Source: an uncultured Opitutales bacterium (GTDB lineage Bacteria > Verrucomicrobiota > Verrucomicrobiia > Opitutales > Seribacteraceae). From it: 64,000 nucleotides of DNA. Positions 18,974 to 22,358 of this stretch are shown piece after piece (position 1 is the stretch's first letter; each line of letters begins with the position of its first letter). The position numbers and the translations under genes were made by a program. A model generated the notes under the pieces. That model did not search any database. It was not told the DNA's origin and saw nothing but the letters and a program-made list of their open reading frames with translations. The stretch lies in assembly GCA_905612515.1 (NCBI GenBank), contig CAJQSI010000016.1, forward strand, positions 27,695-91,694, given 5' to 3'.

Positions 18974-20377
18974 ATGGAAAAGAAAATCGACGACTCGTCC
19001 CTTTCACGCCGCAGCTTCATGGGAAACAGCGGCAAAATCGCCGGAGTAGGTGCGCTTGCTGGCGTAACCCTGCCAATGGTTCACGGAAAAACTGACGACA
19101 CGACGAAGATCGCCTTGGTCGGATGCGGCGGGCGCGGCACAGGCGCAGCCAGCAACGCCCTCTCCGTCTCCCTTGCCAATGGCCCGACAAAACTTGTGGC
19201 GATGGCCGATGTGTTCCAGCACAGGCTGGATAGCAGCTACAACGGACTCAAAAAAAAGCACAAGGAAAAGGTGGACGTATCGCCCGACAACAAACACATT
19301 GGCTTTGACGCCTACAAGAAGGCCATGGACGCCCTAGACAAAGGCGACGTGGCGATATTCACTACCCCCTGCGCATTTCGTTGGGTGCATTACGAGTATG
19401 CCATCAAGAAGGGTCTCAATGTCTTCATGGAAAAACCTGTCACGCCGGACGGTTTTTCCTCCCGAAAAATGCTTGAATTAAACCAAGAAGCTAAGAAGAA
19501 AAACCTCAAGGTCGGTGTTGGTCTGATGTGTCGTCACAGTAAAGCTCGTCGAGAACTGTTTTCCCGTATCAAAGACGGAGAAATCGGAGAAATCCTTGCC
19601 CTTCGCGCCTATCGCATGCAAGGCCCCATCGCCTCCTGCTTCTCCGGCAAAAAACCAGCCGACGAACAGGAACTGATGTTTCAAATACGACGCTTTCACA
19701 GTTTCCTCTGGCTGAGCGGCGGTTCCTTCAGCGACTTCTTCATTCACAACATCGACGAGTGTTGCTGGATGAAGGACGCATGGCCGGTCAAGGCCCAGGC
19801 CCAGGGTGGTCGCCATTATCGAGGTGACAGCATCGACCAGAATTTCGATAACTATACCGTCGAGTACACCTTTCCGGACGGAACCAAACTTTACCTGCAC
19901 GGCCGCAACATGGCGGGTTGCAAAGACGAGTTCTCCAGCAACGCCCATGGCACCAAGGGGTGTGCCCTGATATCAGGACCTGGCGGGCATCGTTCGCAAG
20001 CTCGCATCCACAAGGGCCAAGGCCCCGACAGCGAGATCGCCTGGATGTTCGGCCAACGCGATGGCCAACGCCCGATCACCGAGACCAATCCCTACCAAGA
20101 CGAATGGGAGCACCTCATGGACGCGATTCGCAACAACAAGAAATACAACGAAGTCGATCGCGGTGTAGCCGCCAGCACAACGACCTCAATGGGTCGTATG
20201 GCCGCTCACACTGGACAGGAAATAACCTACGACCAAATGCTCAATTCAAAACACCAGTTCGGCCCAGGGGTAGAAAAGCTTACTCTGGAATCGGATTCTC
20301 CCCTTTTAGCCAACGCCGAAGGCATATATCCTATCCCCGAACCAGGCATCAATAAATCGCAAGAATATTCGGACTAA
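18974..20377 (+). CDS. Gfo/Idh/MocA family oxidoreductase, Tat-like signal
   Basis: LSRRSFMGNSGKIAGVGALAG; KIALVGCGGRGTGAA; NVFMEKPVTPDG; start placed at ATG 18974. Confidence 0.88.
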   Translation: MEKKIDDSSLSRRSFMGNSGKIAGVGALAGVTLPMVHGKTDDTTKIALVGCGGRGTGAASNALSVSLANGPTKLVAMADVFQHRLDSSYNGLKKKHKEKVDVSPDNKHIGFDAYKKAMDALDKGDVAIFTTPCAFRWVHYEYAIKKGLNVFMEKPVTPDGFSSRKMLELNQEAKKKNLKVGVGLMCRHSKARRELFSRIKDGEIGEILALRAYRMQGPIASCFSGKKPADEQELMFQIRRFHSFLWLSGGSFSDFFIHNIDECCWMKDAWPVKAQAQGGRHYRGDSIDQNFDNYTVEYTFPDGTKLYLHGRNMAGCKDEFSSNAHGTKGCALISGPGGHRSQARIHKGQGPDSEIAWMFGQRDGQRPITETNPYQDEWEHLMDAIRNNKKYNEVDRGVAASTTTSMGRMAAHTGQEITYDQMLNSKHQFGPGVEKLTLESDSPLLANAEGIYPIPEPGINKSQEYSD

Positions 20378-20543: not shown

Positions 20544-20573
20544 TTGACGAGCTCTCTTTCACTCTCCTATAGT
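20544..20573 (+). promoter_or_regulatory. sigma70-like promoter for short transcript
   Basis: TTGACG (20544-20549), 18-bp spacer, TATAGT (20568-20573). Confidence 0.6.
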
Positions 20574-20579
20574 GAAGGC

Positions 20580-20653
20580 TTCCAAGAGAGTTTTGGGGTA
20601 GGCTTTCTTGGTTTTAGGCCCGCCCTTGGTTGCAACCGGGGCGGGCCGTTTTT
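20580..20653 (+). ncRNA. candidate ~70-nt structured small RNA or terminated leader
   Basis: Promoter-like element upstream; hairpin CCAAGAGAG-(12 nt)-CTTTCTTGG at 20582-20611; ends in a GC-rich terminator with T5. Confidence 0.5.
20617..20653 (+). terminator. intrinsic terminator
   Basis: GGCCCGCCC-(13 nt)-GGGCGGGCC perfect 9-bp stem (20617-20625/20639-20647) followed by GTTTTT. Confidence 0.8.
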
Positions 20654-20834
20654 ATGTACCGATTTAGTGCCATTCCCAATCCGGTGTGGTTTTACTAGAG
20701 GTAAAAACCCCGCCCGAACATACCCGCAAGGTGCTCATTTTCAGGATCTTGCGACAAGAGATGTTTTTTCATGAAGCTAAAGATTCGCCCTTGATATCTT
20801 GACGAAAGGATAATCAATGCTCTTTCTGTCCGTT

Positions 20835-22358
20835 ATGAAAATATTCTCTGTTATCCTTCTGGTAATCAGTATCCAAATCAACTCGATCCATGCTGCCGAT
20901 AAAAAGCCCAATATCCTCTGGTTGATCACCGACAACTGCAACTTGGACTTTGGCTGTTTTGGCATGCAGGGGGTTCACACTCCACACCTCGATCAATTGG
21001 CCTCACAAGGAGTTCGCTACACCAGAGTTTTTTCCACCGCTCCGGTTTGTGCACCCAGTCGTTCTGCCTTCATGACCGGCATGTACCAAACCTCTGTCAA
21101 TTTACACCACTTTCCCGACCATCGCGACGATGGTTTTAGACTGCCCGAGGGCGTGAGGCCCCTCACGCATCGACTCAAAGATGCAGGCTACACCACCGGT
21201 TCCATCAAAAAAATCGGGGAGCAGGTGGTAGGCTCAGGTAAACTCGACCTCAATTTTGTTAATGAAGGGAAAATTTTCGAAAGCACGGATTGGGATAACA
21301 TTAAGAAGAGCCAGCCCTTCTTTTTACAAGTGAACACCCCGGAAGCGGAGTATGACATATACGATTTCAGAACCAATCGCCCCGAGCGCATCAAATGGTG
21401 GGGGGAAGAAGAACATGTCCAGTATGCCAAACCCGATTCGGTGGTGCCCCCGGCCTATTTCCCCAAACACAAAACTTCCAATGAGGAATGGGCTCGATAT
21501 TTGAACTCGGTTTCCAACATGGACCGACGCGTCGGCATCGTTTTAAAGGAGCTCAAAAAAGAAAATCTTCTCGATGATACGATCATCATTGTTTTTGGCG
21601 ACAATGGCCGGGTCGATCATCGTAGTATTCACTGGGTCTATGACACTGGTCTACACGTGCCCATGATCATCAAATGGCCTAAAAACTTTCCTATGCCGGA
21701 AGGTTTCAAGCCCGGCGCGGTTAATGAAGAGGTGATCAGCCTGCTTGATTTGACAGCCACGACCCTGTCCCTAGCCGGCATATCCCGCCCCTTGGGCATG
21801 CAAAGCCGCGTTTTCCTCGGGAAAAATCGGGATCCGCAAAGAAGATACGCTTTCAGCGCCAGAGACCGTGTCGACGACGTTCCCTTTCGCCTGAGATCAG
21901 TTCGTGGCAAGCGCTACCACTATATTCGCAATTACCAACCCGAGCTCAACTTTGGCACCTATGTTAACTTTTACAAAGAGAAGTGCTTCCCGGTTCAGCA
22001 AGTGATGCGGGATCTTTACAAAAAAGGAAAACTCGACCCACACCTGATGCCCCTCTTCACCGAATTCAGGCGTGAATACCTCTTCGATACCGCAGCCGAC
22101 CCCAATGAACTGAAAAACCTTGTCGACTCAAACCATCCGGATCACCTCAAAGCCCTCACGGAAATGCGGGCCGCGCTGGACACTTGGGTTAGTGCAACGG
22201 GCGACTTGGGGTGGCAAAAAGAGCCTCCTGAAAAGATAGAAAAGTTTCGAGCCGTGATGTACGACTGGTTCGGTGCCCCCGAGTGGTACCCTTACAAACC
22301 TAAAAAATCCTCTTCCGCCTTGGAGAAGATCAATCAAGGCAGAATCATCGAGGACTGA
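20835..22358 (+). CDS. sulfatase (formylglycine-dependent type I arylsulfatase family)
   Basis: PNILWLITDNCNLDFGCFG; APVCAPSRSAFMTGMYQT (CxPSR); GDNGRVDHRSIHW. Confidence 0.92.
   Translation: MKIFSVILLVISIQINSIHAADKKPNILWLITDNCNLDFGCFGMQGVHTPHLDQLASQGVRYTRVFSTAPVCAPSRSAFMTGMYQTSVNLHHFPDHRDDGFRLPEGVRPLTHRLKDAGYTTGSIKKIGEQVVGSGKLDLNFVNEGKIFESTDWDNIKKSQPFFLQVNTPEAEYDIYDFRTNRPERIKWWGEEEHVQYAKPDSVVPPAYFPKHKTSNEEWARYLNSVSNMDRRVGIVLKELKKENLLDDTIIIVFGDNGRVDHRSIHWVYDTGLHVPMIIKWPKNFPMPEGFKPGAVNEEVISLLDLTATTLSLAGISRPLGMQSRVFLGKNRDPQRRYAFSARDRVDDVPFRLRSVRGKRYHYIRNYQPELNFGTYVNFYKEKCFPVQQVMRDLYKKGKLDPHLMPLFTEFRREYLFDTAADPNELKNLVDSNHPDHLKALTEMRAALDTWVSATGDLGWQKEPPEKIEKFRAVMYDWFGAPEWYPYKPKKSSSALEKINQGRIIED

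Follow-up and report, generated by a model that had tools for sequence, protein, structure and literature searches.

Small RNAs with loop-borne motifs

The CsrB/RsmY-type small RNAs (sRNAs) sequester the protein CsrA by means of a short G-rich motif, ANGGA, which they present in hairpin loops and in many copies. The Yfr1/Yfr2 and 6C-type sRNAs are lineage-wide, combine an invariant unpaired motif with changing stems, occur in several copies in some genomes, and carry loops that are thought to pair with mRNA. TwoAYGGAY, to judge by its name, is a short RNA in which a motif occurs twice. A published table lists that motif from the human gut, gamma-Proteobacteria and Clostridiales (PMC2864571). 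For the PVC group, a review counts 8 annotated sRNA families against 345 in Proteobacteria (PMC9029176), and in the open-licence literature we found nothing on sRNAs of the order considered here, or on a loop such as the one described below.

The RNA that we describe apparently represents a new class, although its kind, a small RNA with a loop-borne motif, is already known. It resembles the CsrB/RsmY RNAs in its G-rich motif borne by a loop, its variable stems, the repeats within the RNA, the terminator at its end and the action on a protein proposed for it, but its motif is WGGGGU instead of ANGGA and comes in one or two copies, not many. An invariant loop motif on changing stems is likewise shared with the Yfr1/Yfr2 and 6C-type RNAs, from which motif and phylum differ, and the twice-repeated motif with TwoAYGGAY, from which motif and taxa differ. 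Rfam 15 gave no family at the gathering cut-off in the window, and tRNAs only at 19 loci of the wider set. The best sub-threshold match, anti-hemB (RF02837), is a Burkholderia sRNA that, like the window RNA, has hairpins followed by a terminator; at 20.3 bits for the window region, against a gathering score of 49.5, the resemblance is at chance level. Sub-threshold matches to microRNA families were set aside, as they lie at positions outside the RNA.

The locus and its predicted fold

The window is the whole stretch of DNA that was analysed, 64,000 nucleotides in length (C16:27695-91694), from the metagenome-assembled genome (MAG), 52% complete, of a marine member of the Verrucomicrobiota. Its relevant features, all on the forward strand, are as follows.

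18977-20377, +, Gfo/Idh/MocA-family gene (PF22725 above cut-off, PF01408 borderline), upstream neighbour, not part of the RNA but always linked to it in this family (synteny and co-occurrence)
20544-20549, +, -35 box TTGACG, from the sequence and from TTGAC at a fixed distance in 30 of 30 homologues
20568-20573, +, -10 box TATAGT, conserved in position, with letters that differ among genera (CTAAAT-like in other genera of the family)
20580-20653, +, predicted sRNA of ~74 nt, putatively starting near 20578-20582 and ending in the T-run (family-alignable block 20581-20653, match to model R1, fold z = -5.4)
20582-20611, +, hairpin 1, presenting the class loop (fold, near-invariance in the family, match to model R2)
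20591-20602, +, conserved 12-nt loop UUUUGGGGUAGG, whose core UUWGGGGUAG is common to the order-wide class (class comparison)
20617-20653, +, intrinsic terminator hairpin (9-bp GC stem, loop UUGGUUGCAACCG) with T5 (sequence, fold, covariation in homologues)
20835-22358, +, sulfatase gene (PF00884), downstream but not a conserved neighbour, as relatives have other genes there

A first-pass annotation of this DNA had described a TTGACG-18 bp-TATAGT promoter, a 9-bp hairpin with one G-U pair and a 12-nt loop, and a 9-bp GC stem with T5, and the letters and places of these elements proved exact. The two hexamers, separated by an 18-nt spacer, match the consensus at 10 of 12 positions. By themselves they are not significant (3 such sites in 3 kb, where 2.0 are expected), and they carry weight because they are conserved in homologues, not from their letters alone. 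Hairpin 1 pairs CCAAGAGAG (20582-20590) with CUUUCUUGG (20603-20611). Its nine pairs stand as described, but its extent needs refinement: in the wider class the first and last loop positions (1 and 12) show covariation, pairing as C-G, U-G or U-A, so that the stem comprises at least 10 bp, and in the predicted fold it reaches 12 bp and closes a hexaloop, WGGGGU. The terminator stem pairs GGCCCGCCC (20617-20625) with GGGCGGGCC (20639-20647) and is followed by a G and then by T5 (20649-20653). For 20578-20655 the predicted fold has -41.5 kcal/mol and z = -5.4, which none of 200 shuffles equalled.

The annotation had also judged that no convincing reading frame is present, and this holds. A mechanical 76-aa frame opening with TTG (20544-20774) overlaps the RNA element and begins on the -35 box. 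We rejected it as a small protein, since, besides its start on the -35 box, the indels and the pairing pattern among homologues are not what a coding constraint would leave.

Conservation within the family

When the 441-bp intergenic region was compared with 92 relatives by BLASTN, long matches came from the four genomes of the same genus. In other genera of the family mostly query positions 202-274 alone were matched, that is, window positions 20581-20653, at ~80-85% identity, and beyond the genus the alignable part consists of the promoter and the RNA only. Of the homologues found by BLASTN, 17 were used to build a covariance model, R1. At 49 bits or more it detects the RNA in 31 of 42 family genomes, including one copy (G033) that is cut at a contig end. 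Carriers have one copy per genome, except G002, whose two copies on short contigs, L006 (G002:C48) and L050 (G002:C376), are diverged, both at contig ends, and have terminator or loop mismatches; a decayed copy or a strain mixture in the assembly has been suggested as the reading of this pair.

The first-pass annotation had named a test in advance, namely the conservation of promoter and stems in related genomes, and the relatives keep the -35 box, the position of the -10 box, hairpin 1 and a covarying terminator. The distance from TTGAC to the RNA is the same, within a base or two, in all 30 homologues, and the -10 box, which reads TATAGT in the window's genus and CTAAA(T)-like in other genera, stays at a constant position. 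The terminator helix covaries, with 7 of 13 pairs altered on both sides among homologues. Hairpin 1 and its loop are almost invariant, while the adjacent Gfo/Idh protein falls to 63-64% identity in one genus; because the hairpin hardly varies there, it says little on pairing within the family. In 10 of the 11 family genomes without the RNA no other copy of the class was found either, and since one of these genomes is 96% complete, the RNA must be dispensable in some species.

Taken with the variable downstream gene described next, the conservation of promoter and RNA across the family and the covariation of the terminator support the earlier suggestion of a stand-alone sRNA. Judged on sequence comparison, the window element is very probably a real, conserved RNA gene of its own.

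Neighbouring genes

Wherever contigs of the family show it, the RNA follows the Gfo/Idh/MocA gene in the same orientation, mostly 170-210 bp past the stop (41 bp in G009). Moreover, none of the 11 family genomes that lack a strong RNA match has a Gfo/Idh orthologue at E <= 1e-150, and in the two RNA-carrying genomes without a full Gfo/Idh match the gene is broken or cut by a contig end. This association would suit a 3'-UTR RNA, made within the Gfo/Idh/MocA transcript or regulating it. Against this, the RNA keeps its own promoter at a fixed distance, and class members elsewhere in the order have different neighbours, some of them divergent, which makes such an origin quite improbable.

On the 3' side the relatives show a sulfatase, a GH16-like hydrolase, an esterase-like gene or a convergent DNA-methyltransferase-like gene (the Pfam check covered the window's own genes, and neighbours in relatives were named by eye). 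The first-pass annotation had offered an attenuated leader of the sulfatase gene as an alternative, and in the window the two do share a strand, with the RNA 180 bp ahead of the gene. The alternative found no support, as the gene that follows varies in kind and in strand; in relatives the RNA precedes unrelated or even convergent genes, and neither in the family nor in the wider order is it followed by one kind of codirectional gene, as a cis-acting leader would be. In addition, folding gave no sign of a competing antiterminator structure, and the best structure includes a strong terminator. Synteny thus contradicts the leader reading, which we consider barely credible; the RNA either stands free or is a 3'-UTR sRNA that has its own promoter.

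An order-wide class of loop-bearing RNAs

Weak R1 matches in G006 and G009 belong to another RNA, whose two stems, ATACATAG/CTATGTAT and GGCGCGCGG/CCGCGCGCC, are both capped by the same loop, UUUUGGGGUAG(G/A). These two-motif class RNAs of the window's family, in which both hairpins carry the loop, are:

L113, G006:C11:25837-25919
L114, G009:C11:20322-20400

About two thirds of the weak R1 matches inspected elsewhere in the order carry the same loop, and a good part of the order's weak matches are plain terminators, which were left out of the class. The typical member consists of a 5' hairpin, UUUUGGGGUAA, an A-rich linker, a terminator hairpin with the loop YUUWGGGGUAGR and a U-run, and is often preceded by a TTGAC or CTTGC box. 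It thus has the motif twice, the second copy being in the terminator loop; the window form has it once, its terminator loop UUGGUUGCAACCG lacking the second motif. In G051 the loop is borne by the 5' hairpin itself, as in the window.

A hairpin covariance model of 38 positions, R2, recovers window positions 20582-20619 at 45.6 bits (E 1.3e-10), where the loop core tops a stem of 8 bp or more. It matches 178 of 273 sampled genomes of the order, with 1-7 copies each; among the good genomes the count is 132 of 182, and among genera 70 of 88. In a phylum-wide sample 43 genomes of the order match, and the remaining phylum yields 17 weak matches. Eight matches outside the order were inspected, the best one included, and rejected as class members, being ordinary terminators with neither the loop nor GGGG.

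In an alignment of 29 hairpins the core UUWGGGGUAG is invariant except at W and the stems differ completely. Both partners have changed in 80 pair cells, where shuffles give 19; the share of paired cells is inflated, since rows were chosen partly for having stems. Of the 12 pairs of the wider-class hairpin, 8 show changes on both sides. A pattern search, which is less biased, found 15 exact loop 14-mers outside the family. That number does not exceed the reversed control, but 5 of the 15 lie in perfect stems of 9-11 bp. A bulk count over 824 kb found three core 10-mers, two of which are the known RNAs.

Since the neighbours vary across the order, the class is not tied to a single operon: in many genomes of one family it lies by YgfZ-like (divergent) and DAHP-synthase-like genes, and elsewhere by DnaJ-like, PhoH-like and other genes, all named by eye. 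We are highly confident that this is a real RNA class, apparently undescribed, of one order of the Verrucomicrobiota, probably Opitutales, and the window RNA is its local member, a one-motif variant. At two loci, L291 (G247:C109) and L354 (G158:C1), two class copies lie within 170 and 840 nt of each other, respectively, which suggests tandem duplication.

The same hairpin in phages

IMG/VR contigs were scanned for exact loop 14-mers. Among the matches listed, a stem of at least 8 bp surrounds GCTTAGGGGTAGGC in 35 of 123 places and GTTTAGGGGTAGGC in 24 of 107; each of the three other loop variants has a stem in a single place, and the reversed control in 1 of 120. Many of the loci come from one phage group, but stems differ between groups. 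The phages carry the loop itself, not its complement, on stems of their own. In the largest group an SU10-type major capsid gene stops 33-52 nt before the hairpin; in a second group the hairpin starts 75 nt past a Phage_capsid_4-type gene, and in a third 76 nt past a Mu-like gpT gene. A T-run mostly comes after the hairpin. These loci are:

L424, L482, L439, L414, L444 and L504 (IMG/VR), UUWGGGGUAG-loop hairpins behind major-capsid genes of three unrelated families

No named phage with the loop-hairpin turned up in the phage collection searched. Two further settings were observed in IMG/VR: in L525, L539 and L701 the stem CTCTTGCGG and the loop lie between a small reading frame and a scaffold-like gene, which in this phage group precedes a capsid-like gene, and in the related contigs L210 and L830 a loop-hairpin terminator stands before a homologous frame of 410-420 aa that belongs to no known family.

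The position of the phage copies behind capsid genes, mostly followed by a T-run, raises the question whether the loop-hairpin is chiefly a 3'-end element, that is, an efficient terminator or an mRNA-stabilising cap with no regulatory partner; in most class members, too, the loop caps the terminator hairpin. However, in the window and its family the loop sits in hairpin 1 and not in the terminator, typical members have a second copy of the motif outside the terminator, and most terminators of these genomes lack the loop, which occurs only 1-7 times per genome. We rank this reading third and regard it as improbable.

A putative loop-binding partner

The explanation that we favour is that the locus is a free-standing sRNA gene, with its own sigma-70-like promoter and intrinsic terminator, that would give a separate transcript of ~74 nt and act in trans through its loop. 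The loop may be the binding site of a protein other than Hfq or CsrA, which is the least certain step; the RNA would sequester or guide that protein, and phages would engage it too, through the hairpin that they carry at capsid-gene 3' ends. We give this explanation as a whole, from stand-alone class sRNA through loop-binding protein to phage engagement, a probability of roughly 0.45, and the protein-binding mechanism also stays somewhat short of even odds.

Neither Hfq nor CsrA can be the general partner, because an Hfq match occurs in 1 of 42 family genomes (a general absence, even allowing for incomplete MAGs) and CsrA in 13 of 50 genomes of the order. Dependence on Hfq thus finds no support in the family. 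Most class-carrying genomes of the order lack CsrA, although the window's own genome has one, and UUUUGGGGUAGG contains no GGA of the kind that CsrB/RsmY loops present; the Csr system was rejected on both counts, the wrong motif and the patchy protein.

The main rival retains the same sRNA class but has its G-rich loop pair with C-rich CCUACCCC(A/U)AA sites in mRNAs, as a trans-acting antisense RNA independent of Hfq. An invariant unpaired loop on free stems also resembles a pairing seed, and the letters of hairpin 1 and its loop hardly vary in the family. Nevertheless, a count over parts of two genomes (~560 genes, crude start calls) showed no excess of loop-complementary words around start codons, and 13-mers nearly complementary to it are no commoner in the family than the reversed control. 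One near-complement, GCCTACCCCAATA, does recur, but in genomes without the RNA as well. It is found once in many family genomes, RNA-less ones included, for instance at L100 (G041:C2:43866-43878), and probably reflects coding constraint. Finally, the loop itself, not its complement, is what phages bear, and for this a shared protein is a simpler explanation than antisense pairing. We place a loop-binding protein first because Hfq and CsrA are sparse, because start regions show no excess of complementary words and because it is the loop that recurs in phages, not its complement. Antisense pairing we consider unlikely.

In its boldest form, the proposal is that an order-wide sRNA family uses a new loop-specific RNA-binding protein in place of Hfq and CsrA, and that phages of these bacteria copy the hairpin behind their capsid genes to capture or exploit it; this we hold to be a speculative and rather unlikely extension. 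The class model, with its matches in 178 of 273 genomes, gives direct access to regulation by RNA in bacteria in which no Hfq was found, and the loop can be used as bait for its putative partner. The sole Hfq match among the 42 family genomes, L112 (G024:C54:1775-1963), may be due to contamination or transfer.
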